46,355 nucleotides of DNA, taken from positions 1 to 46,355 of the forward strand of contig JAHDSB010000040.1 in NCBI GenBank assembly GCA_018433015.1. Direction: 5' to 3'. The stretch is from Clostridia bacterium (lineage in GTDB: Bacteria; Bacillota; Peptococcia; DRI-13; SV3-B141). Below, piece after piece: positions 7,513 through 46,285 of this stretch; positions within the stretch are counted from its first letter, which is position 1, and each line of letters starts with the position of its first letter. Under the pieces are notes generated by a model. The model had not been told where the DNA came from. It was given only the letters and a program-made list of their open reading frames with translations, and did not search any database. The position numbers were made by a program, and so were the translations under genes.

Positions 7513-7514
7513 AA

Positions 7515-8915: not shown

Positions 8916-8975
8916 TTAGTTAGCTATTGGGGATATATAAAATAATTAAAGCTTAAAAAGTAAGGGAGAGCTGGA

Positions 8976-9335: not shown

Positions 9336-9371
9336 ACAGTAGTTGTGAAAAGTAAATATTGTTAAGTTTAT

Positions 9372-9466: not shown

Positions 9467-9500
9467 TTTGAAAACATTATTTTTTATTGTTTATGAGAGT

Positions 9501-9530
9501 CATAAGCCGTATTGGTTTATGGCTTTTTTT
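9501..9530 (+). terminator. Riboswitch-controlled intrinsic terminator
   Basis: Stem CATAAGCC (9501-9508) pairs with GGTTTATG (9514-9521) through one G-U pair, with a 5-base loop, followed by GCTTTTTTT. It lies between the TPP aptamer and the ykoF ribosome binding site, the expected position of an expression platform. Confidence 0.85.
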
Positions 9531-9586
9531 CGTCTATAAAGGCCAGCGGTGTTTTACATAACAAACCATGCAAAGGAGTTGTCGAA

Positions 9587-10183: not shown

Positions 10184-10212
10184 AAACTAATAGTACATAG
10201 GAGGAATTTAAG

Positions 10213-12494: not shown

Positions 12495-13257
12495 ATTTAA
12501 TCCCACGGCCAAGTTAATAGCAAATGTTATTATCCTAATTACTTGTGTAGTAATATTTGATCACAAGACTATGTTAGCCCTATTATGCGCTAGTATTTTA
12601 TTTGGCCTTACCACGAACTCCTTTACTAAGAAGAACTTAAAAGCGTTAATACCTTTTCTACTCTTCGCTTTGGCCATGTTGTGGATGAATGCCCTGTGGG
12701 CGAGAGTAGAAAATGCACAGGTGATTGGTTCCTTGGGACCTTTGGAGTTTACTGATAAAGGTTTAATAGTTGGGCTTTCTTTATGTTTCAGAGTCCTTAC
12801 CATCGGGATAACATCGACTATTTTCACCACAAATACAGATCCCACAGAGCTAATGCTTAGCCTAATTAAACAGTGTCGCCTCAATCCGGGAATTGCTTAC
12901 GGTATTTTAACGGCTTTTAGATTTTTGCCTACTATGGAGACGGATTTGGCTACAATAAAAGGAGCCCACAGAGTTCGCAATGTCAAGAAGCACAAATGGT
13001 ACATGGAGAAGGGACGTTGGTATAAGTATGCAATTCCTCTCCTGGCAACTAACATAAGAAAGGCGGAAAGGGTAGCTTTGGCTATGGAAGCTAGGGGATT
13101 TGAAAATAATCAAAAGAGGACTTACTATAAAACGGTCTATTGGAAAAAAAGAGATACTATCTTTGTCTTGTGTACCCTAGTCATGGTAAGTCTGGTTGTT
13201 TCCTTTTCCGCATATAAGGGGTGGCTAGTAGGGTTTAAAAGGTGGCAGGGGTTTTAG
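12478..13257 (+). CDS. ykoC: ECF transporter T component (YkoC)
   Basis: 259 residues from ATG 12478. AAGGA at 12464-12468 fits this start, while the in-frame TTG at 12469 abuts the Shine-Dalgarno. It has several membrane helices and the EcfT cytoplasmic coupling motifs: RAHRVRN and AMEARGF, the Ala-Arg-Gly type motifs that contact the ATPases. It overlaps the 3' end of ykoD by 17 bases. It is the last gene of the TPP-regulated operon and is followed by a terminator shared with the convergent ger operon. Confidence 0.9.
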   Translation: MIKLNRFNPTAKLIANVIILITCVVIFDHKTMLALLCASILFGLTTNSFTKKNLKALIPFLLFALAMLWMNALWARVENAQVIGSLGPLEFTDKGLIVGLSLCFRVLTIGITSTIFTTNTDPTELMLSLIKQCRLNPGIAYGILTAFRFLPTMETDLATIKGAHRVRNVKKHKWYMEKGRWYKYAIPLLATNIRKAERVALAMEARGFENNQKRTYYKTVYWKKRDTIFVLCTLVMVSLVVSFSAYKGWLVGFKRWQGF

Positions 13258-13273
13258 TAGATATTACGTATAG

Positions 13274-13309
13274 AAAAAACTCAAGGGCTAAGAAACCCTT
13301 GAGTTTTTT
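13274..13309. terminator. Bidirectional terminator between ykoC and gerC
   Basis: AAAAAACTCAAGGG (13274-13287) pairs perfectly with CCCTTGAGTTTTTT (13296-13309) across an 8-base loop. U-tracts form on both strands. A close copy of this hairpin lies at 17255-17285, on the other side of gerABC. Confidence 0.93.
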
Positions 13310-13323
13310 ACTTTCCTCACTTG

Positions 13324-14451
13324 CTAAGTCAGTTCTCCAATATCCTTTAAGTTTACTTCCACATCTACAAGTATATTAACATTTTCAATAAAATCTTCTT
13401 GAACATGATCTGTTAATTCTCTTCTCCATTTAGCCAGGGCATATTTGGTAATATCGATACAATCTGTTTTATATTCTTCTTGCATTTTTTTTATAAAGTC
13501 GGTGCAGTCTTGTTCTATATCCATTTTTATTGCTTTTTCTATATCAGTGAGTTTAATGGGGTTTTTTCCGTCTATAATGAATTGGGGTGAAAAGTGTTCC
13601 AGCAATCCGCCTTGGAGTTTTATTTTTATAAAGAAGGTAAACTCATCGTCCTTACGGTAAACCTGGACCTTTCTAGAACGGTTTACAATTACTGTGCCTT
13701 CATCTAAAATTTCTCCATCTTTTTCTAGTATAAAAGGAATTCTTCCTTCACCTTTAAGACCGCGCAGTAAGACTAGGGTTTGAGTATCTTCTAAGTTTGT
13801 TTTGGCAAGTAATCTATCATTTTTAAAGATACCGGCACCGGAAATTTCTATCTGAGATTTATCTTTTATTTTGATAAGAGGAAGAACAGGGTTTTTGCCT
13901 GTTGTTACAACCTGAGTCATAAATTGGTGTAAGGTAGTAGTGGGAAGAAAACTGTTTTTCTGAGCAGTTTTTAACAAACCCATCAAAAAAACACCTGGAT
14001 TGGGGTAGTCTACCATTTTTAACTTGGTGAAATCTTGAGAATGACCTTCCAGTACAGCTAAGTATATGGCGTTACTTGTGGTGGGGGATCTAAATAAAGC
14101 ATTGGTGGCTTTATTTAAGCCTTGGTGGGCCAGGTTTTCTCCATAAATTGCGATTTGTACTATACCTTCAAAATATTGTTCGGGTGATTTGCTACTCCTT
14201 TTTTCCCGTGTTTTTCCTATCGTTGAGGCACTAATAAATTCAATCATATATTTTTTTTCTGTTTCAGGATATAATACGGGAGCAATCGCAGCCACGTTAA
14301 TATTTGTTTCCTTTTTGTCTGATGATGGGATTGTATCGTATATCCCCACAATAGGGATGTTCAGTTCATCAAGGTCTTTATAATCCCAGCACCCAGAAGT
14401 AAAGATTATAGGTATACAACTGATAATAATGATAATAAGCATTTTAAGCAT
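13324..14451 (-). CDS. gerC: Spore germination receptor lipoprotein, Ger(x)C family
   Basis: 375 residues. The signal peptide ends with lipobox FTSGC and C21 is followed by WD, the hallmark of GerAC lipoproteins. The domain contains the family segments VAAIAPV, ISASTIGKTREK and IAIYGENLAHQGL. It starts two bases after the gerB stop. GerC subunits sit lipid-anchored on the outer face of the inner spore membrane and are needed for nutrient response. Length is normal for the family. It is the last gene of the operon. Confidence 0.92.
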   Translation of the reverse strand: MLKMLIIIIISCIPIIFTSGCWDYKDLDELNIPIVGIYDTIPSSDKKETNINVAAIAPVLYPETEKKYMIEFISASTIGKTREKRSSKSPEQYFEGIVQIAIYGENLAHQGLNKATNALFRSPTTSNAIYLAVLEGHSQDFTKLKMVDYPNPGVFLMGLLKTAQKNSFLPTTTLHQFMTQVVTTGKNPVLPLIKIKDKSQIEISGAGIFKNDRLLAKTNLEDTQTLVLLRGLKGEGRIPFILEKDGEILDEGTVIVNRSRKVQVYRKDDEFTFFIKIKLQGGLLEHFSPQFIIDGKNPIKLTDIEKAIKMDIEQDCTDFIKKMQEEYKTDCIDITKYALAKWRRELTDHVQEDFIENVNILVDVEVNLKDIGELT

Positions 14452-14453
14452 AA

Positions 14454-15548
14454 TTAATTCACTTTTCCCTTCTGCAAAGAAGCTGCAATGTTAAGTAGTA
14501 AGGGATAACCCAGGCCAATTATAAGGAAGGAATAGCCCCCATAGGTGGCAAATTTGGCTACTTCTACTATATTTTTAGGGATTAAGGCTACTACATAAAT
14601 AGCTAGCCCCACTATAATGACCATTAAAGGATAATATTTATTTAAATCTAGCTTTAATACTTGAGTAAGGGAAAAGGAGCCGGCAAAACACAAGTTTATA
14701 AAGGGCCTAGGAATCATCAACAACCATAAAGCTAAGAAGAAAAATTCCAGTCGATCTATTACTGGAAAATGAACTGTTTTTAGTAGAGTTAAAGAGGGCC
14801 AGATTAAATGCTGAATCATTTCGGAGCCAAAGACAAGCAGACATACCACCGTAATAAGTACGTATATACATGTAATTATACTCAGAGCAACTACTCCTGC
14901 CTTAAGGACTTCATCTTTGCGCGTAACCATGGGATAGATAACAAGGAGTATTTCAATTCCTCCATAGGAGAAGGAGGTTTTTAGAGATTCTTGAGCTATT
15001 TGTAAAAACCCAGCTTCCCCAAGGGGAAGAATGTTAGTATAGTCAACTCCTTTTAGAGTGGGTAATAGAAGAAGTAGATCTAATAGCAGTATATAAAATA
15101 GGATTTCGTTGAGCCTACCTATTACTTTGGCGCCTTTTCTGGCAACGTAGATTGCAGCAATAATAATCATAAGAGCAATTACGCTTGTAGGAGTCTTAGG
15201 TAATATATAGACTGAGGTAAACTCAGTGCCAACGCGAAGAGGTATAGATTCAAAGAAAACAATATGAGCTATAAACCCAATGTTGATAAAGAAACCAAAA
15301 AATTTACCTAAGAGCAGATAAGAAATTTCTATTAAAGTTTTATCGGGGAAGAGGCGTCCCAGGCGTACTATCATCAAGAGGGATAGAAGCGGAACAAGAG
15401 AACCAAGTAATACAGCTAGCCATCCATCGGGGCCTACATTAGTGCTAGCAGTGCGAGGTAAGCTAAGGACTCCGGTAGCTATAGTACTGCCAATAATTAT
15501 AAAAATTAATTGTTTACTGGTAATTGTAAAACGAGGATTAGTTTTCAT
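14454..15548 (-). CDS. gerB: Spore germination receptor permease subunit, GerAB/APC family
   Basis: 364 residues with about ten membrane helices. The N-terminus ITSKQLIFIIIGSTIATGVLSLPR is the conserved GerAB opening, in the region corresponding to helix 1 of amino-acid permeases. It overlaps the gerA stop by 11 bases, which suggests coupled translation. GerAB subunits bind the germinant, often an amino acid; the ligand cannot be predicted here. Length matches the family. Confidence 0.93.
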   Translation of the reverse strand: MKTNPRFTITSKQLIFIIIGSTIATGVLSLPRTASTNVGPDGWLAVLLGSLVPLLSLLMIVRLGRLFPDKTLIEISYLLLGKFFGFFINIGFIAHIVFFESIPLRVGTEFTSVYILPKTPTSVIALMIIIAAIYVARKGAKVIGRLNEILFYILLLDLLLLLPTLKGVDYTNILPLGEAGFLQIAQESLKTSFSYGGIEILLVIYPMVTRKDEVLKAGVVALSIITCIYVLITVVCLLVFGSEMIQHLIWPSLTLLKTVHFPVIDRLEFFFLALWLLMIPRPFINLCFAGSFSLTQVLKLDLNKYYPLMVIIVGLAIYVVALIPKNIVEVAKFATYGGYSFLIIGLGYPLLLNIAASLQKGKVN

Positions 15549-17121
15549 TTTGATTATCCTTTTTCTTAAAAGTACCCTGTCGCTTCTTGTTTGTGCTGGG
15601 AATAGATACAGGGCGCTTTTTCATTTTCCAGAGGAAAGTTCGGTAAAATGAGTCTTTTAAATCAGCAAAACGAAAGGGGGCAAAAGGTGAAAAATAGGGA
15701 ATACCTAAACTTTCCAGAGAAGAGAGGTGCCCCAAAATTATTAACCAGCCAAAAGTAACACCGAAGATGCCAAAAGATGAAGCAAGAAGTAACATCGGCA
15801 ATCTAAGAACTCTAGTAGATAGAGCCATACCGGGAGTAGACATAGCAAAAGTACAGATTGTCGTAACTGCAGTAATAATTACGATAGCAGGACTAGCTAA
15901 GCGAGCACTAATTGCAGCCTGTCCCAGAATAATACCTCCGACAACTCCGACTGTTTGTCCAAAAGAGGTGGGGAGACGCAGTCCCGTTTCCATAACTAAT
16001 TGAATGATTATTTCTAGCACTAGGGCCTCAACAGCTACTGGAAAAGGTACTTCTTTACGGCTTTCGGCCAGGGATACAATTAGATCGAAGGGAATAAGCT
16101 GTTGTTGGTAACTGAGTAAAGCAACATAAATTGCCGGCAGGGATATGGCTAGAAAGAAAGCTAGATAACGAAGCATTCTGGTAAATGAACCAATAAAGGT
16201 ACGTTCATAATAGTCTTCAGGGGCCTGTAAAAATTGTACAAAGAGGCTGGGAACTATTAATGCTGAGGGGATTCCATTTGCCATGAGGAGTACTTTACCT
16301 TCCAGGAGATGGGCTATTGTTTTATCAGGTCTTTCTGTACTCTTAAACTGAGGGAAAAATGAAAAGGGATTATCCTCAATTAGCTGTTCAATATATCCAG
16401 TATCTAGTACACCATCAATATCGATATTAGAAAGTTTTTCTTTTATATTAGAAACAATGTCAGAACTAGCAATATCCTGAATATAAATGATAGCTACATC
16501 AGTGCGAGTTCTTTTTCCAATAATTGTTTTTTCTACAGTTAGGTTGGGATCTCTAAGTTTTCTGCGGATAAGGGCAATATTTACAATCAAACTCTCCACA
16601 AAGCCTTCTCGTGGACCACGAAGTGTCTTTTCGGTATCCGGTTCTGTTATGCCTCGTATTTCGCCACCACGGATATCTAATGCTAGAACCTCACTGAATC
16701 CGTCAAATATTAAGATAGTTAAACCATCAAAAATATTTTGTATTAAATCAGAAAATGTATTAAGTTTTTTGATTTGTCCTATGTTCAGAGACGTTTGGTA
16801 TATGCGGTCTATCAGATGTTTAGGACCTTCATTTTCTATTTGTTCGCGGTTGGAATATAGCAACAAGGGATTTAGAACATCACGATTAAGAATGGCAGTA
16901 TCGATAATGCCTTCCAAATATATAACAACAGCATTAAGATTTTCGGCACCTTCTATTACAAAGGAACGAGAAACAATGTCTTGATTCTTTGTAAGATAAG
17001 GTTTGAGTAATTTTACTTTTGCTGTTAAATCTTCAGGAAGAATAATTTCCTCAGAAGTGTTATCTTTTATTGTAGAATGTGGAGAGGGCTTTTTTTTAAT
17101 TAAACTTTTAACAGAACGCAT
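15538..17121 (-). CDS. gerA: Spore germination receptor subunit, GerAA family
   Basis: 527 residues from ATG 17121, chosen for the GGAGG five bases upstream; an open frame continues 23 codons further without a better site. The N-terminal cytoplasmic domain contains DVAIIYIQDIASSDIV and the AVVIYLEGIID segment, followed by the conserved EGKVLLMANGIPSALIVPSLF and the membrane domain with EVPFPVAVEALVLEI and TPGMALSTRVLRLP. All are standard GerA/SpoVAF features. First gene of gerA-gerB-gerC. Normally expressed in the forespore under sigma G; I did not find a convincing sigma-G promoter in the 130 bases upstream. Confidence 0.93.
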   Translation of the reverse strand: MRSVKSLIKKKPSPHSTIKDNTSEEIILPEDLTAKVKLLKPYLTKNQDIVSRSFVIEGAENLNAVVIYLEGIIDTAILNRDVLNPLLLYSNREQIENEGPKHLIDRIYQTSLNIGQIKKLNTFSDLIQNIFDGLTILIFDGFSEVLALDIRGGEIRGITEPDTEKTLRGPREGFVESLIVNIALIRRKLRDPNLTVEKTIIGKRTRTDVAIIYIQDIASSDIVSNIKEKLSNIDIDGVLDTGYIEQLIEDNPFSFFPQFKSTERPDKTIAHLLEGKVLLMANGIPSALIVPSLFVQFLQAPEDYYERTFIGSFTRMLRYLAFFLAISLPAIYVALLSYQQQLIPFDLIVSLAESRKEVPFPVAVEALVLEIIIQLVMETGLRLPTSFGQTVGVVGGIILGQAAISARLASPAIVIITAVTTICTFAMSTPGMALSTRVLRLPMLLLASSFGIFGVTFGWLIILGHLSSLESLGIPYFSPFAPFRFADLKDSFYRTFLWKMKKRPVSIPSTNKKRQGTFKKKDNQNEN

Positions 17122-17254
17122 TGCTACCTCCAATATCTTGTATATAGTAGCTTTTTCCCTAGTCCAATAACTTATACTAAAATAAAACATAGTGTTCCAC
17201 TAACTATCGAATATGTTGGGTTTGATAGCTTGTTCAAAGGGTAAATAGCAGAAA

Positions 17255-35874: not shown

Positions 35875-36423
35875 TTATAAATCAGGGTGCGAAAATCCAG
35901 GACCTGAACAAACATTGTTTGTGGGAAAAATCCTTCTCTCGTCAGCAGTTATTATAATTCTGTCTTCGGGTTCTGCTAAATTCAATAAGGGATAGCTACA
36001 TCCATCGATAATGATGGCATGTTTGGGTATAGGGGATACTTGCAACTGTAGGGAGGTACACTTTCTATTTAGACCTGTTATTCTAAATTGTCCATCTGCA
36101 TTTTCAAAAATCCCCTCTTCTTGGGTATAAGGCATCCCTACCCCTAAGGAGTAAAAACGAGTCTCTTTTAACACCATTTGACCGGAACTAATAGTGTATA
36201 TTTCATAAACCGGTGTAAGATGGATTGAATGAATAAATTTAAGAGTAAAAGTTCCTTCTTTCACGGGAATAACTGTTTCTTTTGCGGTGTCTATATCTTT
36301 AATAATCAGAACCTGTACTTGCTCTGTCTGTGAATAGATTACTGTACTTACCACTATTAACAATAATACAAAAATAAGTAAAATTCTCTTTTTCATAAAA
36401 TCTGAGCATTGGATTTGCTCCAA
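35875..36423 (-). CDS. DUF1850 family protein of the TRAP-TAXI operon
   Basis: 182 residues if started at TTG 36423, which has AGGAGG with a 7-base spacer; the first ATG (36396) has no ribosome binding site. A signal-anchor helix (about 12-31) precedes a domain with FTLKFIHSIHLTPVYEIY, the H-S-x-x-x-x-P-V-x-E core of DUF1850. The protein regularly lies between the binding protein and the fused permease in TAXI operons, as here, so it is probably an accessory subunit, but its role is not known. The TTG lies in a 12-bp hairpin. Confidence 0.82.
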   Translation of the reverse strand: MEQIQCSDFMKKRILLIFVLLLIVVSTVIYSQTEQVQVLIIKDIDTAKETVIPVKEGTFTLKFIHSIHLTPVYEIYTISSGQMVLKETRFYSLGVGMPYTQEEGIFENADGQFRITGLNRKCTSLQLQVSPIPKHAIIIDGCSYPLLNLAEPEDRIIITADERRIFPTNNVCSGPGFSHPDL

Positions 36424-36430
36424 TGCTCAG
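36402..36430 (-). promoter_or_regulatory. 12-bp hairpin that includes the DUF1850 start codon
   Basis: CTGAGCATTGGA (36402-36413) pairs perfectly with TCCAATGCTCAG (36419-36430) over a 5-base loop. In the minus-strand mRNA the TTG start (36423-36421) is in the 5' arm, just after the AGGAGG. No T-run follows, so termination is unlikely. Sequestering the start, or stabilising the upstream binding-protein mRNA, are possible roles. Confidence 0.6.
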
Positions 36431-36459
36431 CCTCCTTTTATGATTTTTTTGGGCGATAC

Positions 36460-37428
36460 TTACTCGTTAAAGGCACGTTCTGCACCAGGATGTAATGGAA
36501 CAGACATACCTTCGTTACCAGTTTCTTTAGTGATCATATTACCAACTTTATGGGCAGCTGTAATCTGGTCTTGGTTATCATACATAGTTTTAACCATTTG
36601 ATAAGCCAATTCTTCATCCAGTTCAGAACTAACTGCTAGCATAGCTTTAACTGCTACGGCTTTACTATCTTTATCTAAATTGTTATATGTTCCAGCTGGA
36701 ATAACAATTTTTGTGTAGAAAGGATATTGTTCAATCAGTTTATCAGCCATTTCGTCATCAACTTCAACTAAAATTATATCGTGTTGGGCCGCTATGTCTT
36801 GCACAGCTGCTGTTGGGAAACCTGCCGTTACGAAAGCGGCATCCACATTACCATCTTTCAAGTTGCTGGCTGCTTCAGCAAAGGAGAGATTATGTACATC
36901 AATATCATCAAAAGTTACCCCTGCAGCTTCCATTATCTGCTTAGCATTGGCAGCTGTACCGCTTCCGGCGGCACCTACTGCAACTCTCTTACCCTTCAAA
37001 TCAGCAACAGTGTTGATTCCACTATCAGCTTTGGCAATAATTTGAATTGTTTCCGGATACAGAGTAACTAATCCTCTAATGTCTTCAAACTTATTACCTT
37101 CAAACATCTCGGTGCCATTGTAAGCATAATAAGCAATATCATTCTGAACAAAGATAACTTCTACTTCACCGTTTCTCATCATAGTAACGTTAGCAGTAGA
37201 AGCACCTGTACTTTGGGGAGTTGAATTTACATTTTCAATGTTTTTGTTCCAGATATCAGTAAATACTCCTCCCAGAGGGTAATAGGTGCCTGCTGTGCCG
37301 CCTGTAGCAAGGTTAACATACGTTGGTTCCTGTGCAGCTCCCTCATCGGATCCACCACCACATCCCCCAATGACAAACGCACACATCAAAATGAGACACA
37401 TTGATAATGCCAGTACCTTCTTGTTCAT
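36460..37428 (-). CDS. TAXI-family TRAP transporter substrate-binding lipoprotein
   Basis: 322 residues from ATG 37428, preceded by GGGAGG; the frame continues 34 codons upstream without a start signal. The lipobox VIGGC has Cys23, then a Gly/Ser linker. The mature domain begins YVNLATGGTAGTYYPLGGVF, the TAXI signature, with STGASTANVTMM and LKGKRVAVGAAGSGTAANAKQIMEAAG. TAXI proteins bind glutamate, other amino acids or dicarboxylates in characterised cases; the ligand here is unknown. First gene of the operon. Confidence 0.95.
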   Translation of the reverse strand: MNKKVLALSMCLILMCAFVIGGCGGGSDEGAAQEPTYVNLATGGTAGTYYPLGGVFTDIWNKNIENVNSTPQSTGASTANVTMMRNGEVEVIFVQNDIAYYAYNGTEMFEGNKFEDIRGLVTLYPETIQIIAKADSGINTVADLKGKRVAVGAAGSGTAANAKQIMEAAGVTFDDIDVHNLSFAEAASNLKDGNVDAAFVTAGFPTAAVQDIAAQHDIILVEVDDEMADKLIEQYPFYTKIVIPAGTYNNLDKDSKAVAVKAMLAVSSELDEELAYQMVKTMYDNQDQITAAHKVGNMITKETGNEGMSVPLHPGAERAFNE

Positions 37429-37782
37429 GAATCTACCTCCCAAAGATTTTTTTTGCTTCAATAATACATATTCGAGCCAAGTTAATATTTTCCTTTTTAT
37501 TTTACATATAATTTTATAAATTCTAAACAATGATATATTTTACTATATTGATAATATTTGCAATAATCAAAGACCGGGATTATGCAAAAACCTGGTATTA
37601 GCTAAATTTGATAAAATCAGACTGAGAGATAATCTTAGGATATTGTTGCTGGAATCCTTTTATATAGTAAAGGGTCTTCTTATTTAGGTAAAATATTCAA
37701 AATATAATGGTTGATCTTATGGTAGAATATAGTGGTGGATCAATATATTTCCACATTATGGGGGAGTAGGAGGAGTAGTGAC
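37429..37782. other. Divergent intergenic region
   Basis: About 350 AT-rich bases between the TAXI gene (minus) and the Cas6-like gene (plus). No ORF, array repeat or clear promoter was recognised. It contains no CRISPR-like repeated units. Confidence 0.5.
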
Positions 37783-38553
37783 TTGATACAAAAGGTAATA
37801 ATTAAGGTCTCATGTTTGAGAGCTGGTCAAGTCCAGAGTTATGGAGGTTTAGAGATTCATAGCTGGTTTTTCCAATGGATTAGTACTATAGAACCAAGGA
37901 TCAGTGAAAAATTACATAACTTGGAGAACAAACCTTTTAGTATGGGTTCTTTACAAGGAGGTATTAAAAAGCGGGGAGAAACTAATATTGAGGAAGGAGC
38001 GGACTGCTCCTTTACTGTTTCAGGATTAAATGAAAATATGTGTGTGCTATTAAGGATGATAGAAGAAAACTTGGTAGATAATATAATACAATTGGGAACA
38101 GCAGAATTTCGGGTGAAAAAGGTCTTACCCATAATGGGCCCAGATGGCCTTTCCTATCAGGACATTTTAGATAATGCCTGGGATACGGAAAGTTTTACCC
38201 TAGAATTTTGGTCACCCACTAGCTTTCATCATCAGGGTAAACAAGTTTTATTCCCATATCCTGAGTTAGTATTACAAAGTTTGAAAAGAAAATGGGACTC
38301 TTTTAGCAATGTGGCTTTACCTGAAATAGACTACTCCAATGTACAAGTAAGTAGCTACAATTTGGAGACACGGCTTGTTGATTTTCAAAAGTATAAAATA
38401 ACCGGTTTTATCGGCAGGTGTACGTTTGTTTTGGATAAAGGATTTACTGAATCCAATAAAAGAGTAATTAATGCCTTGGGTTATTATGCCTCTATTGCCG
38501 GAGTAGGATATAAAACATATATGGCTTTGGGTAATTGCAGGTATTATGTTTAG
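37783..38553 (+). CDS. cas6: Cas6-like CRISPR RNA endonuclease, orphan
   Basis: 256 residues from TTG 37783, with AGGAGG nine bases upstream; the frame is open to a GTG at 37732 without a ribosome binding site. The C-terminal half has TLEFWSPTSFHHQGKQVLFPYPELVLQSLKRKW, KITGFIGRCTFVLDKG and a terminal glycine-rich segment GVGYKTYMALG, the pattern of Cas6 (PF10040-type) RAMP proteins. H26 (LEIHSWFF) is in the region where the catalytic His often lies. The glycine-rich loop ends in GN rather than the usual G-x-G. Cas6 cuts pre-crRNA within the repeats. No array or other cas gene is in the window, so it works with an array elsewhere or is a relic. Confidence 0.72.
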   Translation: MIQKVIIKVSCLRAGQVQSYGGLEIHSWFFQWISTIEPRISEKLHNLENKPFSMGSLQGGIKKRGETNIEEGADCSFTVSGLNENMCVLLRMIEENLVDNIIQLGTAEFRVKKVLPIMGPDGLSYQDILDNAWDTESFTLEFWSPTSFHHQGKQVLFPYPELVLQSLKRKWDSFSNVALPEIDYSNVQVSSYNLETRLVDFQKYKITGFIGRCTFVLDKGFTESNKRVINALGYYASIAGVGYKTYMALGNCRYYV

Positions 38554-38606
38554 AACATAAGTGATGAAGGCGAAATTAATAATTAAATAATAGTTTATTA
38601 TTTAGT

Positions 38607-38636
38607 AAAAAGTGGCAACATAAAAGGCCACTTTTT
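38607..38636 (+). terminator. Terminator after the Cas6-like gene
   Basis: AAAAAGTGGC (38607-38616) pairs with GCCACTTTTT (38627-38636) across a 10-base loop, with the T-run extending one base further. Confidence 0.88.
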
Positions 38637-38774
38637 TGTTATTTCTTAATAGTTCTATCTTACTATAATAGATTTAAATATATGATATACTTAATTCGAT
38701 ATCCTCCTGCTTTTTATCTTAACCCTTTAGCTATTCTGGGAGTTACTTACAAGATCTTCTTTCGGAGGTGTTAT

Positions 38775-41612
38775 ATGGGGCGTAAGGAAAAAGTATATAA
38801 TGCATTAAAAGAACTTTGTGCCAATATTACATTAGAACATTTAAATAAAGGGTTTAGTGGTTTTGCTGCTATGGATATAGGGGAGAAAATAAGAGTAAGT
38901 AGGAGTAATGTTAGTAAGGAATTAAATCGGTTGTTGGAAGAAAAGAAGGTAATTAAACTTAAGGGTAGACCTGTATATTATCTGGATAAAACAAAAATTG
39001 AGAATATTCTTGCAAGAACTATAGAGGAAGGTTCTCTAGAATTAAATTCTATTAATGAATTATTAAAACCAGAAACAGAAACAACAACAACAACAAGTAA
39101 TAAACTAGAAGATACTTTTTATAGTCTAATAGGTTCCCAGGGCAGTCTAGAAGTAGCTATAAAACAAGCTAAGGCTGCAGTTCTTTATCCTCCTCGTGGA
39201 TTGCATACTTTAATTATAGGACCTACCGGTGTAGGGAAAACAATGTTTGCTGAGAAAATGTATCAATATGCGTTACAAACCGGTACCATTTCTGCAAATG
39301 CTCAACTTGTTATCTTCAACTGTGCCGAATATGCAGATAACCCGCAATTGTTATTATCTTATTTATTTGGTTATGTAAAAGGAGCTTTTACAGGTGCTGT
39401 AAAAGATAAAAAAGGCATTATAGAAAAAGCCAAAGAGGGAATTCTTTTATTAGATGAGATTCATCGACTTTCCCCTGAAGGTCAAGAAATGTTATTTTTA
39501 CTTATGGATAAAAATATTTACAGAAGATTAGGAGAAACAGAGGAAATAAGAGAGGCTAATGTTCTCTTGATTGGTGCTACTACAGAAGATATTAATTCCA
39601 CGCTTCTGAAAACATTTTTGCGAAGAATACCGATGATAATTAAAATACCTCAACTAAGAGAAAGGTCTCTCCAGGAAAGATTGCAATTAATTAAGGAATT
39701 CTTCAGAGGTGAAGTAAAAAATGTAAAAGTACCTATAAGAGTTTATAAAGATGTAATGAAAGCTTTCCTTTTGTATGATTGTCAGGGGAATATTGGGCAA
39801 CTAAAAGCAGACATCCAATTAACTTGTGCTCGAGGATTCTTAGAATATAAAAAAGGTAATAAGAAAATTGTAGAGATTGATACTCCTTTATTAACTGAGT
39901 ATGTTTATAAAGGTCTTTTCAATTATAAAAAATATAGAGATGAAATATTGAATTTACCCGATGTTAATAAGCAAAAATACTATGAATTTACTGAAGCTCA
40001 AAAAGAAGAACAATTGATAAGCATTGTAGATGACTATAACATCTCAGAGAGGCTTTATCAGGAAATCAGTGAGGAATATCTTGTTTATTCCCAATTAGGT
40101 TATTCCCAGGTTAAAATCAGTGAAATTCTTAATAAGTATATAGAAAAATATCTGGAAAAATTATTAAAAAAATGTATTTCTAAAAAAGAAATGCCCGATA
40201 AAGAAGAATTGTTTAAGATTGTAAGTCCCAGGGTGTATTTTTCCGTAGAAACAGCTTTAAAGGTTGCGGAACGAAAACTTAAAAAGAAATTTAGCAAAAA
40301 AATTTATATAGCCTTTTCCCTACATGTTAGTGCCTTAATGGAACGACTAATTAATAATAGAAGTGTAACAGATATTGATATTAATAAGATTGCCTTAAAT
40401 AATCCTCGAGAATTTGCTGTAGCAAAACTAATCAGACAAATACTTGAAAAAGATTTAGAAATCGCTATACCCCAAGAGGAATTAAGCTTTATCGCTATGT
40501 TTTTATATGCTGTTGATACGGAAGAACGCTGTAAACATAACAAAATCGGAATTATCGTTTTAGCCCATGGAGAGCGTACTGCTTCAAGTATTGCTGATGT
40601 AGTTAATAATTTACTAGGGACAAAAGACTGTAAGGCTATCGATATGCCCTTAGAGGTAAAGGTTGAAAATATTTTAGAGATAACTATAGAGGAAGTAAAA
40701 GAGCTGGATCAAGGTAAAGGTGTCTTACTATTGGTAGATATGGGGTCTTTGGTAGCCTTTGGTGAAATTATTACTAAGAAAACAAAAGTAAAGACCATGT
40801 CTTTAGGCATGGTCTCAACACCCATAGTCCTGGAAGCTGTCAGAAAATGTTTATTACCTGAAATGACTTTAGAACAACTGGTACAAGATTTACAGGGGGC
40901 TAATCCTTATCTAGGTAGGTTGGCAACAAATAGAGTTAAGAAACAAGTATCCATAAGTAAACCTAAAACAATTATTACTACTTGCTTAACAGGAGAAGGT
41001 TCTGCCCTTAAATTGGCAGAATTGTTAAGGAAAGCTTTGCCTGATCTAAATGAATATGGTGTTAGATTAGAACCTGTAAATGAGAAAAGTTTTCTTGATG
41101 CTAATATAAATATTAAAGGTGATATATTAGCAGTTGTGGGAAGCGTGGACTTAAATATTCCCCAGGTACCCTATATATCTGTCGATGAAGTAATTATAGG
41201 AGAGGGTATTAAAAGAATCGAAAATTTAATTTATGGAGAAAAATACCATGGTACAAATAACTCTAAAGACCAAGGTACATTACTAGATTTGCTTAAAGAT
41301 GCCCTCATCTTCTTAAACCCTGATAAAGCATATAATACAGTTAATAAGTCTTTTCACTATATCAATAACAAGATAAAAGTAGAGAACTATCGAGGAAAGG
41401 AAATCAGGTTCATCTTACATTGCTGTTGTATGGTGGAAAGATTAATACAAGGAGAAGAATTACCTTATGAGCAAATAACAGAGGTGATTAAGGGAAATAT
41501 TGAAATGTATAAAATCATAAAAGAATCTTTAGAAATAGTGGAAGAAACTTTTGGTATAGAAATACCTGACACAGAAATAGGTTATATAATAGATCTATTT
41601 GACACACTATGA
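38775..41612 (+). CDS. levR: LevR-type sigma-54-dependent PTS activator
   Basis: 945 residues from ATG 38775, preceded by GGAGGTG; the upstream 31 codons of open frame lack a ribosome binding site. Order: N-terminal helix-turn-helix (about 1-65); AAA+ domain with Walker A GPTGVGKT (149-156), the GAFTGA sigma-54 contact loop (203-208) and Walker B LLLDE (about 223-228); a first PRD (about 440-560, LHVSALMERL); a mannose-type IIA-like domain (H598 in LAHGE); a galactitol-type IIB-like domain (C737 in TTCLTGEGSA); and a second PRD (about 830-945, FILHCCCMVERL). PTS phosphorylation of PRD and EII-like domains usually sets its activity. Its target is the -24/-12 promoter directly downstream. Confidence 0.92.
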   Translation: MGRKEKVYNALKELCANITLEHLNKGFSGFAAMDIGEKIRVSRSNVSKELNRLLEEKKVIKLKGRPVYYLDKTKIENILARTIEEGSLELNSINELLKPETETTTTTSNKLEDTFYSLIGSQGSLEVAIKQAKAAVLYPPRGLHTLIIGPTGVGKTMFAEKMYQYALQTGTISANAQLVIFNCAEYADNPQLLLSYLFGYVKGAFTGAVKDKKGIIEKAKEGILLLDEIHRLSPEGQEMLFLLMDKNIYRRLGETEEIREANVLLIGATTEDINSTLLKTFLRRIPMIIKIPQLRERSLQERLQLIKEFFRGEVKNVKVPIRVYKDVMKAFLLYDCQGNIGQLKADIQLTCARGFLEYKKGNKKIVEIDTPLLTEYVYKGLFNYKKYRDEILNLPDVNKQKYYEFTEAQKEEQLISIVDDYNISERLYQEISEEYLVYSQLGYSQVKISEILNKYIEKYLEKLLKKCISKKEMPDKEELFKIVSPRVYFSVETALKVAERKLKKKFSKKIYIAFSLHVSALMERLINNRSVTDIDINKIALNNPREFAVAKLIRQILEKDLEIAIPQEELSFIAMFLYAVDTEERCKHNKIGIIVLAHGERTASSIADVVNNLLGTKDCKAIDMPLEVKVENILEITIEEVKELDQGKGVLLLVDMGSLVAFGEIITKKTKVKTMSLGMVSTPIVLEAVRKCLLPEMTLEQLVQDLQGANPYLGRLATNRVKKQVSISKPKTIITTCLTGEGSALKLAELLRKALPDLNEYGVRLEPVNEKSFLDANINIKGDILAVVGSVDLNIPQVPYISVDEVIIGEGIKRIENLIYGEKYHGTNNSKDQGTLLDLLKDALIFLNPDKAYNTVNKSFHYINNKIKVENYRGKEIRFILHCCCMVERLIQGEELPYEQITEVIKGNIEMYKIIKESLEIVEETFGIEIPDTEIGYIIDLFDTL

Positions 41613-41667
41613 CACACAAAACTTTTTAAATAAAATTTAGAAAAAATATTTATTTTTGATTATTGAG

Positions 41668-41704
41668 AAAAGGAAGCTTGTTAAAGGAAGCGCTTCCTTT
41701 TTTT
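41668..41704 (+). terminator. Terminator after levR
   Basis: AAAAGGAAGC (41668-41677) pairs with GCTTCCTTTT (41692-41701), followed by more T's. The inner part also forms the palindrome AAAGGAAGCGCTTCCTTT (41684-41701), so two alternative hairpins exist. The palindrome lies about 65 bases before the predicted sigma-54 start site and could also be an activator site. Confidence 0.72.
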
Positions 41705-41730
41705 AATTGTCGAGAAAAATAACACACAGG

Positions 41731-41748
41731 TTGGCACGTTAATTGCGA
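41731..41748 (+). promoter_or_regulatory. Sigma-54 (-24/-12) promoter of the PTS operon
   Basis: TTGGCACGTTAATTGCGA matches the consensus TGGCAC-N5-TTGC; the GG (41733-41734) and GC (41745-41746) are separated by exactly 10 bases. It lies 60 bases before the IIA gene and just downstream of a LevR-type activator. Confidence 0.95.
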
Positions 41749-41806
41749 TGTATAAAAGAGAAACAAATCAGTTGATAGCGATTTAAGGGATGGAAAGGAG
41801 AATATT

Positions 41807-42205
41807 ATGGTTGGGATAATATTAGTTACTCATGGCAAGTTTTCTCAAGAAATTCTTAAAAGTGCAGAACTTATCCTAGGGAAACAAGAAAATGTAGTTA
41901 CACTGGGTCTTAATCATGGTGATAGTATAGAGCAACTAAAAGATGATGTGCGTAAAGCAATAGATAAATTGGAAAAAGGAGCAGGAGTTTTAGTATTGAC
42001 TGATTTGTTTGGCGGAAGCCCTACAAATGTAACGGCTGCTAGTATGAAAGAAAAAAATTTCGAGTGTCTAACTGGATTAAATATGCCCATGCTTATTGAA
42101 GCTTTTTCCAGCAGATCAACTTGTTCATTAGAAGAATTAACAAAAAAATGTAGAGAAGCAGGGATTTTTGGTATAAAAAACTTAAGCAAAGAACTGCATT
42201 TGTAG
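41807..42205 (+). CDS. PTS mannose/fructose-family IIA component
   Basis: 132 residues with GGAAAGGAG upstream. IILVTHGKFSQEIL carries the phosphorylated H9 of the mannose-type IIA domain, and LTDLFGGSPTNVTA is the conserved second motif. It takes phosphate from HPr and passes it to the separate IIB protein. First gene after the sigma-54 promoter. The presence of separate IIA and IIB chains matches LevD/LevE rather than the fused ManX. Confidence 0.93.
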   Translation: MVGIILVTHGKFSQEILKSAELILGKQENVVTLGLNHGDSIEQLKDDVRKAIDKLEKGAGVLVLTDLFGGSPTNVTAASMKEKNFECLTGLNMPMLIEAFSSRSTCSLEELTKKCREAGIFGIKNLSKELHL

Positions 42206-42223
42206 AAGAGAGGAGGTGGAAGC

Positions 42224-42700
42224 ATGGCAAAAATAGTGTTAACAAGAATTGATGATAGGCTTATTCATGGACAGGTAATGACAGCGTGGCTCAATTATAC
42301 GGGAGCCAACAGAATAGTTATTGTTGATGACATAGTAGCCAAAGATGAATTTATTATTTCAATTTTAAAAATGGCGGTTCCTGCGGGCATAAAGGTAAAT
42401 ATTTATGATATTACTAAAGCAGTTACTAAATTCCAAGAAGAGAAAGAAACTAATGACAAAATAATAATACTTGTTAAGACTCCTCAGACTGTCTATTCCC
42501 TATTAGAAAAAGGTTTAGAGATTAAGAACCTCAATGTAGGTGGAATGGGTGCACAACCCGGAAGAAAAAAATTATATCGGAATATTTCTGCTTCAGATGA
42601 AGAAAAAGAAATTTTCAAAAAACTAATAGCAAAAGGTATTGAGACTACAATAAGAATTATTCCAGATAACAAAGAAGTGAAGGTAGATAAATTATTATAA
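42224..42700 (+). CDS. PTS mannose/fructose/sorbose-family IIB component
   Basis: 158 residues, AGGAGG upstream. TRIDDRLIHGQVMTAW contains the active-site H15 of the mannose-type IIB. VGGMGAQPGRKKLYRNISAS is the conserved C-terminal block. It transfers phosphate to the incoming sugar at the IIC/IID complex. Confidence 0.93.
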   Translation: MAKIVLTRIDDRLIHGQVMTAWLNYTGANRIVIVDDIVAKDEFIISILKMAVPAGIKVNIYDITKAVTKFQEEKETNDKIIILVKTPQTVYSLLEKGLEIKNLNVGGMGAQPGRKKLYRNISASDEEKEIFKKLIAKGIETTIRIIPDNKEVKVDKLL

Positions 42701-42720
42701 AAAAGAAAGGGGGATTTTTT

Positions 42721-43494
42721 ATGGAGATAAAACTGTGGCAAGCTTTTTTAGTTGGTGTCATTTACTATTTAGGGACAGTAGGTACCCCTTGGCTTACTTT
42801 ACTGGGAAGTATAAGTGTTTTATATAAACCTTTAGTGGCAGGAACATTAGTAGGTGTAGTTTTGGGAGACCCAGTCACCGGTTGTATTATAGGTGCTAGC
42901 ATAAACCTTCCATACATAGCTTTTATATCTGCCGGAGGTACAGTACCGGTTGATCCGGGATTAGCAGGTTCGCTGGGAACGGCTTTAGCTTTAGCAGCGG
43001 GTGTGGAACCTTCTGTAGCTGTTACCTTAGCCATACCTTTAGGACTTTTAGGTACATTAATATGGGTTGCTCATATGACTGTGGATGTCTTTTTCGTTCA
43101 TATGGCTGATAAAGCCGCAGAAGAAGGAGATTTAGACCGAATTTGTTTCTTACACATCGTTCCTCCGCAAATAGTTATGTTTCTTATTACAGTCATTCCC
43201 GTTACATTGGGCTCTTACTATGGTGTTGACCTTGTTAAATCAGTAGTAGATATCTTAGCAGGAAAGCCTTTACATATTTTATCTGTTATAGGTGGAATCT
43301 TACCTGCTTTAGGTATTGCTATGAACTTACGGGCTATTGGTAGAGCAGGAACAATACCTTTTTTCATTTTTGGCTTCTTATTAGCTGTTTATATGAAGTT
43401 AGATGTTATTACAATTGCTATTTTTGCTGCCATAATTGCCTATTTTTATACTAAATTGACCCAAGAGAAGGGAGTTGTAGCTGCTGATGAATAA
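42721..43494 (+). CDS. PTS mannose/fructose/sorbose-family IIC component
   Basis: 257 residues, mostly hydrophobic, AAAGGGGG upstream. GTLVGVVLGDPVTGCIIGASINLPYIAF and VDPGLAGSLGTALALAAGV are the typical ManY/LevF/AgaW motifs. It forms the membrane channel with IID. Its last 8 bases overlap the IID gene, implying coupled translation. Confidence 0.92.
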   Translation: MEIKLWQAFLVGVIYYLGTVGTPWLTLLGSISVLYKPLVAGTLVGVVLGDPVTGCIIGASINLPYIAFISAGGTVPVDPGLAGSLGTALALAAGVEPSVAVTLAIPLGLLGTLIWVAHMTVDVFFVHMADKAAEEGDLDRICFLHIVPPQIVMFLITVIPVTLGSYYGVDLVKSVVDILAGKPLHILSVIGGILPALGIAMNLRAIGRAGTIPFFIFGFLLAVYMKLDVITIAIFAAIIAYFYTKLTQEKGVVAADE

Positions 43495-44317
43495 TGACCA
43501 AGTAAAAAATAAACTGAGCAAAAAAGATGTAGTAAGAGCATTCTGGCGCTGGACTTTTTTCTCACATGCTAACTATAACTATGAGAGGCTTGAAGCTACT
43601 GGAGTAGTTCAGTCAATGGCTCCTATTTTTAAAAAGTTGTATGGAGATAATCAGGAAGAATTTAAAGCTGCCATCAAAAGACATATGCTGTTTTATAATA
43701 CTGAACCTCACTTTGGCGGTGTTATCAATGGTATGGTCATTGCTATGGAAGAAGAAAGGGCTAATGGGGCGCCTATTACTGATGAGGCTATAAATAGTGT
43801 TAAGACAGGTTTGATGGGACCCTTTGCTGGTATTGGAGATACTTTGTGGCAAGGAACGTTAACGCCTATATTGTTAGCTTTTGGTATCAGTTTAGGTATC
43901 CAAGGAAACTTGATGGGGCCAGTACTGTATACAGCCTTAATGTACGGAATCATGTTACCTTTAGCATATTTTATGTGGATGAAAGGTTATGAAGTAGGCC
44001 ATAAAGGAATCCAGAAAATACTGGGTGGCAATATCCTTAAAAGTGTTATTACGGGAGCCTCCGCTATGGGTGCTATGGTTTTAGGTGCACTTACGGCAAA
44101 TTTCGTTAAATTAGATAGTCCTCTAGTAATTACAATAGGTAAGGCATCGATAAACCTGCAGACTGATATACTTGATAAACTGCTTTTAAATTTATTACCT
44201 TTAGCTGTTACCTTAGGTACTTTATATTTATTGAAGACAAAACAGAAAAAAGCTACAGCTGTATTAGTATTTCTTATGGCTTTAGGTGCTTTGGGAGGAT
44301 TTATAGGACTATTTTAA
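43487..44317 (+). CDS. PTS mannose/fructose/sorbose-family IID component
   Basis: 276 residues. The conserved N-terminal RAFWRWTFFSHANYNYERLEATG, FYNTEPHFGGVINGMVIAMEE and VKTGLMGPFAGIGDTLWQGTLTPI blocks are all present and diagnostic of ManZ/LevG. C-terminal membrane helices follow. It completes a four-protein sugar transporter. Confidence 0.94.
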   Translation: MNNDQVKNKLSKKDVVRAFWRWTFFSHANYNYERLEATGVVQSMAPIFKKLYGDNQEEFKAAIKRHMLFYNTEPHFGGVINGMVIAMEEERANGAPITDEAINSVKTGLMGPFAGIGDTLWQGTLTPILLAFGISLGIQGNLMGPVLYTALMYGIMLPLAYFMWMKGYEVGHKGIQKILGGNILKSVITGASAMGAMVLGALTANFVKLDSPLVITIGKASINLQTDILDKLLLNLLPLAVTLGTLYLLKTKQKKATAVLVFLMALGALGGFIGLF

Positions 44318-44341
44318 TAATAAGAGGGGGAGGAACAGAAA

Positions 44342-45127
44342 ATGAAAAGAAGATGGCATAATATTTTCAAATCAGATAATCGTGCCTTGGTGTTAGCTAT
44401 GGACCATGGTATGTTTATGAATGTTGCGCAACAAGGGCTTAAAGATCCCAGAAAAGTAGTAAACAAAGCAGTTAGTGGAGGAATAGATGCAATCTTAACC
44501 ACATTCGGCACCGCTCAGCACTGTCAAAAAGAAATAGGAAATACAGGTTTGATTCTTAGAGTCGATGGTGGTACAAGCCAAATACATCCTAGTGGAAACG
44601 GCATGGATGAAGTTGTGAAGACATTTAATGTAGAAGATGCAATAAGAGTTGGAGCAGATGGAGTTATGTGTATGGGATTCGTGGGAACAGAATATGAAAA
44701 GACAGAACATTTAGCATATTTTGCATCCGAATGTAACAAATGGGGGTTAGTTTTTGCAGCTGAAATGATTCCGGGTGGGTTTAAATATCCGGACAAGACT
44801 ACTTTAGAAAATATAGCATTAGCCAATAGAATCGGTGCAGAGTACGGTGCTGACTTTGTTAAATCACCATTTGTAGGAGATGCAACAACATTTAAAGAGG
44901 TTATAGAAAGTTGTTATAAGCCAATCCTTGTATTAGGTGGGGGTAAAGTTAGAGATGATAGAGGTTTATTATCAATGGTAAAAAAAGCTATGCAAGCTGG
45001 AGCAAAAGGGGCTATAATTGGCAGAAGTATTTGGAGACATGAAAAAGTGGACAAAATTTGTGCAGCTCTAGCAAAAATTATTCATGAAGATGCTGATATA
45101 GAAACGGCTTTGAAAGAATTAGAATAG
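44342..45127 (+). CDS. Class I aldolase of the DhnA/LsrF family
   Basis: 261 residues, AGAGGGGGAGG upstream. RALVLAMDHGMFM near the start, AEMIPGGFKYPD, and the Schiff-base lysine region ADFVKSPFVGD (K174) followed by VLGGGKVRDDRG are the DhnA-type TIM-barrel aldolase pattern (archaeal-type fructose-1,6-bisphosphate aldolase, LsrF, ADH synthase). In a PTS operon it probably cleaves the phosphorylated sugar or its oxidised product to C3 units. The exact reaction cannot be told from sequence. Confidence 0.85.
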   Translation: MKRRWHNIFKSDNRALVLAMDHGMFMNVAQQGLKDPRKVVNKAVSGGIDAILTTFGTAQHCQKEIGNTGLILRVDGGTSQIHPSGNGMDEVVKTFNVEDAIRVGADGVMCMGFVGTEYEKTEHLAYFASECNKWGLVFAAEMIPGGFKYPDKTTLENIALANRIGAEYGADFVKSPFVGDATTFKEVIESCYKPILVLGGGKVRDDRGLLSMVKKAMQAGAKGAIIGRSIWRHEKVDKICAALAKIIHEDADIETALKELE

Positions 45128-45158
45128 TGTCACATTGCTGCTTAAGAGGAGGAGTAAC

Positions 45159-46208
45159 ATGTCTGAAAAAATAAAAGCAGGTGTATTTACTGATGTCGGT
45201 AATATAGAAATACTAGAATTAGAAAAGCCTAAACCAAGGGGCAATGAGATATTAGTAAAAATAAAAACCTGTGCTATTTGTACTTGGGAACAAAGAGTAT
45301 TTCAAGGTATAAACAAAGTAAAGTTTCCTTTCATTGGTGGTCATGAAACTGTGGGAGTAATAGAAGAATTGGGTGAGGACCTAAAGGATAGTAAATGGAA
45401 GGTAGGGGATAAAGTTGCACTAGGATTAATGCTAGCTTGTGGAGATTGTTATTATTGCAGAAAAGGCCAACACGGGAGTTGCGAGACCTTTAATCATGAA
45501 AATAAATTAAGAGGTTTTCCCTTCAGAGGTATGGGAGGGTTTTGTCAATATCAGCTAGTTGTGCCAGAGAATTTGTTTAAATTAAAGGAAGATCTACCCT
45601 GTGAAGTAGGAGCTTTTGCTGAACCCCTTTCTTGTGTAATTCATAGTATTGAAATGGCTAATATTGAAATAGGTAATGATGTAGCCATAATAGGGGCGGG
45701 AATGATGGGACTTCTTCATATTATATTAGCAAAAAGGCAAGGGGCTAGGGTATTGGTCTTTGAACCTAATGAAGAAAGGTTAAAGCTAGCTAAAAAATTA
45801 GGTGCAGATGCAGTAATAAATCCCAGTATAGATAATCCTGTTTCTAAAATTAAAGCATTGACTGAGGGTAGAGGTGCAGATGTAATCTTTAATACTACAG
45901 CTATTAGTAAAATTGCTGAACAAACAACAGAAATGGTCGCAAAATTAGGAAAAATCATTTTTTATAGTTCCTATCATCCTGATATTCCTATCAGTATAAG
46001 TCCTAACTGGCTACACAAAGAGTTAGTTAGCTTAATAGGAACTGCCAATTCTAATATGAAGGATTTTGAAAAATCATGTAAATTATTATCTGATAGAATT
46101 ATAGATCCTTCTCCCTTTATAAGCGATGTAGTGCCTTTTGAAGATATTGAAAAAGCTTTGAGAAGGTCTATTGAGCCTGGAACATTTAGAGTTATAATCA
46201 AGTTTTAA
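45159..46208 (+). CDS. Zinc-dependent medium-chain dehydrogenase (polyol dehydrogenase-like)
   Basis: 349 residues from ATG 45159, with GAGGAGG upstream; the frame opens 8 codons earlier. Catalytic zinc ligands C38/C41 region (TCAICTWEQ) and GGHETVGV (H62, E63), and structural zinc Cys94, 97, 100 and 108 (CGDCYYCRKGQHGSC) are visible. The Rossmann motif VAIIGAGMMGLLH binds NAD(P). Similar enzymes oxidise sugar alcohols or their phosphates. Last gene of the LevR operon, working with the aldolase on the PTS product; substrate unknown. Confidence 0.88.
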   Translation: MSEKIKAGVFTDVGNIEILELEKPKPRGNEILVKIKTCAICTWEQRVFQGINKVKFPFIGGHETVGVIEELGEDLKDSKWKVGDKVALGLMLACGDCYYCRKGQHGSCETFNHENKLRGFPFRGMGGFCQYQLVVPENLFKLKEDLPCEVGAFAEPLSCVIHSIEMANIEIGNDVAIIGAGMMGLLHIILAKRQGARVLVFEPNEERLKLAKKLGADAVINPSIDNPVSKIKALTEGRGADVIFNTTAISKIAEQTTEMVAKLGKIIFYSSYHPDIPISISPNWLHKELVSLIGTANSNMKDFEKSCKLLSDRIIDPSPFISDVVPFEDIEKALRRSIEPGTFRVIIKF

Positions 46209-46215
46209 TCAATGA

Positions 46216-46270
46216 AAAAAAGGGAGTGTTGCAAAACTACTTTTAAAGTAGTTAGCAGCCCTCCTTTTTT
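46216..46270 (+). terminator. Terminator of the PTS operon
   Basis: GGAG-T-GTTGC (46223-46232) pairs with GCAGC-C-CTCC (46255-46264) with one mismatch, flanked by an A-run and TTTTTT. Inside is a second perfect stem AACTACTT/AAGTAGTT. A strong intrinsic terminator starting about 10 bases after the dehydrogenase stop. Confidence 0.85.
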
Positions 46271-46285
46271 CTATATAAAATAAAT

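Follow-up and report, generated by a model that had tools for sequence, protein, structure and literature searches.

The contig JAHDSB010000040.1 (GenBank assembly GCA_018433015.1) of a Clostridia bacterium of the Peptococcia was analysed over its positions 1 to 46,355, a stretch hereafter called the window. In its last part lies one tight operon on the forward strand, which encodes a LevR-type activator and, behind a −24/−12 site, the components IIA, IIB, IIC and IID of a mannose-family phosphotransferase system (PTS), a class I aldolase of the DhnA/DeoC family and a zinc dehydrogenase (Table 1). From IIA through the dehydrogenase, successive genes are separated by no more than ~31 bases, and IIC and IID overlap by 8 bases. 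An earlier interpretation made from the letters alone, the sequence-only reading, had grouped activator, promoter, PTS, aldolase and dehydrogenase into a single unit, and the open reading frames (ORFs), the domain matches and the layout confirm this grouping. As GGAGG stands just 5' of the ATG at 38775, the LevR start chosen by the ORF caller, 38682, is probably too early, while the best start of the dehydrogenase is the ATG at 45159, with AAGAGGAGGAG upstream. The window appears to stop at the contig end, 147 bp past the dehydrogenase stop codon, so that a further gene may lie beyond, despite the terminator-like sequence found there. Elsewhere the genome carries one sigma-54 gene (rpoN) and four HPr genes.

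Table 1. Coordinates of the operon features in the window (RBS, ribosome-binding site)
Feature	Position	Strand	Basis
LevR-type sigma-54 activator with AAA+, PRD and EIIA-man domains	38775..41612	+	Domain matches, RBS; ORF caller start 38682
Hairpin AAAAGGAAGC...GCTTCCTTTTTT, probable levR terminator or activator-binding region	41667..41708	+	Inside inverted repeat I3; scan did not flag
Sigma-54 −24/−12 promoter TGGCACGTTAATTGC	41732..41746	+	Exact consensus match; position kept in relatives
PTS EIIA, mannose family	41807..42205	+	Domain matches
PTS EIIB, mannose/sorbose family	42224..42700	+	Domain matches
PTS EIIC, mannose/sorbose family	42721..43494	+	Domain matches
PTS EIID, mannose family	43487..44317	+	Domain matches
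DhnA-type class I aldolase	44342..45127	+	Domains, alignment, structure model; Lys174, Asp21, Glu141 conserved; Ile143 at family's catalytic Tyr column
Zinc-dependent medium-chain dehydrogenase (threonine/polyol dehydrogenase superfamily)	45159..46208	+	Domains, upstream AAGAGGAGGAG, comparison
Imperfect inverted repeat and T run, terminator-like by eye	46216..46275		3' of last gene; scan did not flag

The activator belongs to the LevR-type PRD/sigma-54 regulators, as the domain search found the AAA+ sigma-54 interaction domain (Sigma54_activat), two PRD stretches and an EIIA-man domain, and GAFTGA is visible in the translation. It is not identifiable with DagR, the glucosaminate regulator (650.5 bits, NF047795 equivalog cut-off 1400), and, among the LevR proteins compared, is closest to that of locus L065 (58% identity), followed by a paralogue on contig C56 of its own genome (57%).

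The promoter site, which ends 60 bases before the IIA start, matches exactly the −24/−12 consensus that we supplied to the scan. It is the sole site with at most one mismatch in the 46 kb window, where a mean of 0.34 such sites is expected by chance and at least one occurs in 28 of 100 shuffles. In all eight loci of the same gene order, the window included, a sigma-54-like site stands 5' of the first structural gene, starting 61–93 bp upstream, with an exact match in five (the window, L065, L067, L070 and L071) and two mismatches in L006, L064 and L066; the shuffles in this comparison across loci were mononucleotide ones. Upstream of two related operons with a SorC-type regulator (G223 and G247), no sigma-54 site was found, the best candidates having 4 and 3 mismatches. 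The near-perfect promoter of the sequence-only reading stands, being exact in the window and repeated in position in relatives.

All four transport proteins score above the Pfam gathering thresholds of the mannose family (EIIA-man, PTSIIB_sorb, EII-Sor and EIID-AGA). Compared with the E. coli ManXYZ, SorFBAM and Aga proteins, they are 27–39% identical where they match (IIC 27–31%, IID 36–39%), too little, in IIC and IID, to place the system with a characterised Man, Sor or Aga PTS of the E. coli type, and the AgaF model of NCBIfam gives 106 bits, below its cut-off of 130.

Aldolase and dehydrogenase

The aldolase is a DhnA-type class I enzyme by its fold and its Schiff-base lysine. A structure model built from five sequences (pLDDT 79, pTM 0.83) matched best, among the matches listed, the M. 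jannaschii ADH synthase MJ0400 (2qji, 2qjg and 2qjh, Z 29), of which 2qji and 2qjh have dihydroxyacetone phosphate (DHAP) bound; LsrF (Z 26–27) and archaeal class I fructose-bisphosphate (FBP) aldolase (Z 25) came next, with the sulfofructose-phosphate aldolase YihT (Z 21–22; 21.7) and tagatose-bisphosphate aldolases lower. Lys174 aligns with Lys184 of MJ0400 (numbering counted from the alignment), which we take to be the Schiff-base lysine of that enzyme, and is present, like Asp21 and Arg228, in 68 of 68 aldolase rows. Glu141 is found in 60 of these rows, and the column of Ile143, that of the FBP-aldolase tyrosine, holds tyrosine in nine. In FBP aldolase and ADH synthase, tyrosine is the acid/base residue, and in animal-type class I aldolases it is a glutamate; by analogy, Glu141 is likely to act as acid/base in place of the lost tyrosine. 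At the positions of 141 and 143, the PDB chain 1w8s has Glu and Phe, and 1ojx has Trp and Tyr.

Although MJ0400 and the archaeal FBP aldolase share fold and lysine with the window enzyme, the latter has Ile in place of the tyrosine, with Glu141 conserved, and falls below the TIGR01949 cut-off for ADH synthase (192.1 bits, cut-off 299) and the NF040816 cut-off. Identity with the LsrF thiolase was likewise rejected (121.2 bits, PRK08227 cut-off 297; 27% identity to E. coli LsrF), and the partners LsrK, LsrG and LsrACDB are not in the operon. The nearest aldolases are 57–65% identical and include spirochaete ones that adjoin an ATP-binding cassette (ABC) transporter, the closest being that of the spirochaete locus L004 (65%).

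For the dehydrogenase, the top NCBIfam match is the scyllo-inosose dehydrogenase IolM, at 171.8 bits against the NF041097 cut-off of 450. GatD, the galactitol-1-phosphate 5-dehydrogenase, is also rejected as an identity (122 bits, PRK10309 cut-off 550), with 29% sequence identity compared with 21% for SorE. As the NCBIfam cut-offs of the named systems are missed, membership in the broad family is clear and the assignment of a substrate is not.

Related loci and known systems

The sequence-only reading had suggested seeking the order IIABCD–aldolase–dehydrogenase elsewhere, and it recurs with a LevR gene in seven other genomes, with extra genes inserted in some. A scan of genome contigs with the aldolase gave six loci, four of them close relatives (57–64%) from three spirochaete metagenome-assembled genomes (MAGs) and one Anaerovorax odorimutans MAG, the last of which (L006) has the window's order from LevR to the dehydrogenase. 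Within the phylum of the window, an aldolase relative at E <= 1e-30 is present in 70 of 398 sampled genomes, and six of these besides the window (G374, G310, G154, G119, G251 and G174) have the PTS, aldolase and dehydrogenase genes in this order downstream of a LevR gene. In G251, an FGGY kinase and ABC genes separate LevR from the PTS operon, as they do in G174, where LevR stands at the end of a neighbouring stretch (L073), several kb upstream. The inserted genes are an iron alcohol dehydrogenase before IIA (G374), a GmhA-like SIS protein between aldolase and dehydrogenase (G310) and creatininase-like genes with weak IolN scores (G119 and G174); HPr and EI homologues follow the operon in G154, G119, G251, G174 and L006. 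The two SorC-type operons, G223 and G247, have the order PTS–dehydrogenase–aldolase.

Between L006 (8289–9882) and the window (42721–44317), IIC and IID are 80% identical, compared with 43% for LevR, 44% for IIA, 58% for the aldolase and 54% for the dehydrogenase, and it seems from these identities that transport genes and enzyme genes were exchanged separately, giving a mosaic operon. The window's own genome has three EIID genes. One belongs to a second operon on contig C56 (L140, G000:C56:12000-28000, locus 3641–13489), with LevR, IIABCD, a zinc dehydrogenase, an aldolase, HPr and EI, in which LevR is 57%, the four PTS components 31–39% and the dehydrogenase 29% identical to those of the window. 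Unlike the window operon, it has its own EI and HPr, one of the genome's four HPr genes mapping between aldolase and EI, and its aldolase is a class II ketose-bisphosphate-type enzyme, so that a non-homologous aldolase fills the same slot. A sigma-54-like site with two mismatches 5' of its IIA gene is, taken alone, not above chance. The third PTS, on contig C74, adjoins SIS, NagA-like and NagB-like genes, as read by eye, and appears to be the amino-sugar PTS of the genome.

The association of the two enzymes was surveyed in 67 loci (L004–L008 and L064–L125) chosen by the aldolase alone; 58 of the 59 highest phylum rows after the window's own were taken, leaving G298, the lower rows and the short match L009 outside the set. 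The blastp threshold for a dehydrogenase homologue was E <= 1e-8, loose enough to include distant members; gene contexts were labelled by tblastn with representatives of our choice, so that a label of no kinase may reflect a short contig. A dehydrogenase homologue lies on the same strand within 300 bp of the aldolase in 47 of the 67 loci and within 1.5 kb in 48, and over 48 loci the pairwise distances of the two proteins correlate with r = 0.90, a value reached in none of 2000 permutations. The aldolase and dehydrogenase are a co-inherited, travelling pair.

A mannose-type PTS accompanies the aldolase in nine loci and an FGGY kinase in 43 others, together 52 of the 67; some of the remaining 15, which have neither label, lie on short contigs. 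Every PTS-linked aldolase belongs to one clade of 18 rows (SH-aLRT 99), and this clade is the only one relied on, as the tree is a quick one in which some long branches meet (L116 with L124). It also holds the spirochaete loci L004, L005 and L007 with an ABC transporter (an FGGY kinase being seen in L005 only), L072 and L074 with an energy-coupling factor (ECF) transporter and an FGGY kinase, and L073 and L083 with an amino-acid-type permease; over the whole tree, the PTS state changes five times. Since importers vary within the clade, the enzymes that follow phosphorylation stay while importer and kinase change. In one spirochaete locus (aldolase 61%, dehydrogenase 50% identical), Rbs-type ABC transport and an FGGY kinase replace the PTS, so that the products of phosphorylation by the PTS and by the kinase appear to be equivalent. 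A Rhizobium relative has, beside aldolase and FGGY kinase, a GlpD-type glycerol-3-phosphate dehydrogenase at the place of the zinc enzyme, and enzymes of this type act next to the phosphorylated carbon. A Klebsiella relative adjoins an FGGY kinase, a short-chain dehydrogenase/reductase (SDR) and a glycerol-3-phosphate-responsive antiterminator. All matches in the plasmid collection are under 60% (30–35% in the 30 records listed out of 264).

Some gene neighbourhoods of the pair recur. In L072 and L074, an odd, apparently catabolic run of genes comprises the ECF transporter (by eye), a URO-D/MtaA-like protein, the FGGY kinase, a TRZ/ATZ-type amidohydrolase, a formyltransferase-like protein and the pair; in L075, L076, L079, L080, L085 and L095, a GntR regulator and nucleoside-type ABC permeases (by eye) accompany it, five of these six loci also having an FGGY kinase. 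GrdB/GrdE-like glycine/betaine-reductase genes, recognised by eye from sequence starts, lie beside the pair in L069 (14779–17426) and L073 (2577–5223), possibly by chance, and a RibF-like gene (by eye) is near it in L073/L083, which would hint at a possible link to riboflavin.

Known systems share parts of this plan. The lev system has a LevR-type activator, a sigma-54 promoter and a mannose-family IIABCD, but no aldolase or dehydrogenase; levDEFG-sacC is entered in the Clostridiales table of PMC6615313. The E. coli gat operon works alike, with PTS, zinc dehydrogenase and DHAP-forming aldolase; however, its PTS is of the Gat family, its aldolase the class II GatYZ and its regulator GatR, and GatD is remote in sequence, as given above. 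In E. coli sor, a mannose-family PTS adjoins the dehydrogenase SorE, whereas an SDR is present, an aldolase is absent and the regulator is the sugar-binding SorC; with SorE at 21% and no SDR in the window operon, the L-sorbose operon sorCDFBAME was rejected as an identity. The autoinducer-2 system lsr has a homologous DHAP-releasing aldolase, LsrF, but differs by its ABC transporter, LsrK and LsrG. The Clostridiales sigma-54 table of PMC6615313, in the portion available, lists LevR levDEFG-sacC, GfrR gfrABCDEF, AtlR pentitol and CelR operons, and none of the entries there combines a DhnA-type aldolase with a zinc dehydrogenase. The earlier claim that this is not a levan, fructose or mannose operon is therefore supported, by that portion of the table as well as by the gene order and sigma-54-like sites of eight loci and the 27–39% PTS identity, and no characterised operon of the same order was found in the literature searched, where most subscription papers lay outside reach. 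By the tests made, the window operon is not a member of the gat, lev, sor, lsr, dga or inositol systems; as a PTS catabolic operon it is of an ordinary type, but it has a consistently conserved aldolase–dehydrogenase cassette that is wider in distribution than the sequence-only reading suggests.

Proposed pathway and its alternatives

The explanation that we favour overall, with a confidence slightly better than even, is a substrate-induced operon in which a polyol-like substrate is phosphorylated by the PTS, oxidised beside the phosphate and cleaved to DHAP and an aldehyde. LevR would use its PRD and EIIA domains to sense phosphorylation by the PTS and would activate the sigma-54 promoter at 41732. 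The compound imported by IIABCD would be polyol-like, either a sugar alcohol, a ketose or a sugar acid, and would end in a CH2OH whose carbon the complex phosphorylates; the zinc dehydrogenase would oxidise the hydroxyl beside that carbon, giving P-OCH2-C(=O)-CH(OH)-R, from which the aldolase, by a Schiff base at Lys174, would release DHAP and an aldehyde. Phosphorylation by PTS or kinase, oxidation and retro-aldol cleavage, in this predicted order, is the most likely mode of action, as no shorter scheme gives every conserved step a role. The phosphorylating step is supported by the PTS or FGGY kinase in 52 of the 67 loci, and the scheme by analogy with GatABC-GatD-GatY, the Rhizobium GlpD-type locus and LsrF, which releases DHAP according to PMC8016206.

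Several observations weigh on the other side. The window aldolase has Ile143 where FBP aldolase and ADH synthase have tyrosine, and 20 of the 67 loci hold no homologue of the dehydrogenase within 300 bp, some having an SDR or an iron-type dehydrogenase. The spirochaete locus with FGGY kinase has an SDR as well, so the zinc enzyme could act elsewhere there, and the Rhizobium aldolase is only 30% identical to that of the window. Substrates may also differ among the sister operons, given the creatininase-like, GmhA-like and iron alcohol dehydrogenase genes inside them.

The same three steps would be needed if a ketose (L-sorbose, D-tagatose, D-allulose or similar) entered as its 1-phosphate and was split directly by the aldolase, the zinc dehydrogenase then reducing the aldehyde and disposing of NADH. 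The Sor PTS, of the mannose family, acts on a ketose (PMC2831201). In spirochaetes, the SDR could turn a polyol into a ketose ahead of the FGGY kinase. However, the window dehydrogenase falls in the threonine/polyol dehydrogenase group, which oxidises secondary alcohols, and one sister operon has a YqhD-like iron alcohol dehydrogenase, of an aldehyde-reductase type, besides the zinc enzyme, which would make the latter redundant as an aldehyde reducer there; we regard this route as unlikely. A galactitol-like route, in which a hexitol phosphate is oxidised to a ketose 6-phosphate and then receives its second phosphate from a kinase whose gene lies elsewhere, the aldolase cleaving the bisphosphate, would follow E. 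coli gat with its PTS, zinc dehydrogenase and bisphosphate aldolase, and would suit both GatD, which is closer to the window dehydrogenase than E. coli SorE is, and the class II ketose-bisphosphate-type aldolase of the C56 operon. It is nevertheless quite improbable, since the PTS is not of the Gat family and, apart from the FGGY kinases near some sister operons, no gene for a sugar-phosphate kinase could be identified either in the window operon or in the stretch from LevR to the dehydrogenase of its sisters.

A cyclitol phosphate oxidised by an IolM-like dehydrogenase, with the ring opened in an IolN-like manner by a hydrolase resembling creatininase, is suggested by the IolM match and by the creatininase genes of two sister operons, whose IolN scores are 68 and 84 against a cut-off of 245. 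All curated cut-offs are missed and the window operon has no hydrolase, which makes the idea weak, and an unopened ring would be no substrate for an aldolase; we hold this route very unlikely. Processing of an autoinducer-2-type compound, with the PTS in place of the Lsr ABC transporter, could draw on the homology of LsrF, the FGGY kinase also found in lsr loci and a spirochaete regulator that scores, below cut-off, on the LsrR model. With the low LsrF identity and score, LsrG and LsrK missing from the operon and a zinc dehydrogenase that is not part of lsr, this is the merest outside chance.

For the favoured pathway of oxidation beside the phosphate, a polyol-like substrate is the most likely prediction. 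Among the substrates that the sequence-only reading had offered, a hexitol or a derivative of one would fit this predicted chemistry, while a deoxy-sugar or amino-sugar derivative gained no specific support, the amino-sugar PTS of the genome appearing to be a separate locus. A broader proposal is possible but doubtful, namely that the aldolase represents an undescribed subfamily (the lysine, Asp21 and Arg228 invariant, Glu141 conserved, the tyrosine lost) which, with its co-evolving dehydrogenase, would form a general cassette for oxidation next to a phosphate and release of DHAP, set behind PTS, Rbs-type or nucleoside-type ABC transporters with FGGY kinase, ECF or amino-acid-type permeases for many polyol-tailed compounds, the window being its LevR/PTS version. 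If so, one enzyme pair would account for a large set of carbohydrate loci, as the 70 genomes with an aldolase relative indicate, and would bear on LevR-controlled PTS operons to which mannose or fructose is given as substrate by default annotation.

Other features of the window

Directly 5' of levR, a Cas6-family protein (Pfam PF10040) is encoded at 37732–38553; no CRISPR-like repeat family was found within 36000–42000, and other cas genes were not searched for. A thiamine pyrophosphate (TPP) riboswitch (Rfam RF00059, 70.6 bits) lies at 9364–9473; the genes behind it, among them that of an ABC ATPase (10803–12494), likely encode a thiamine-related transporter. The GerA/GerAC-type spore germination genes at 13324–17190 suggest a spore-forming host.

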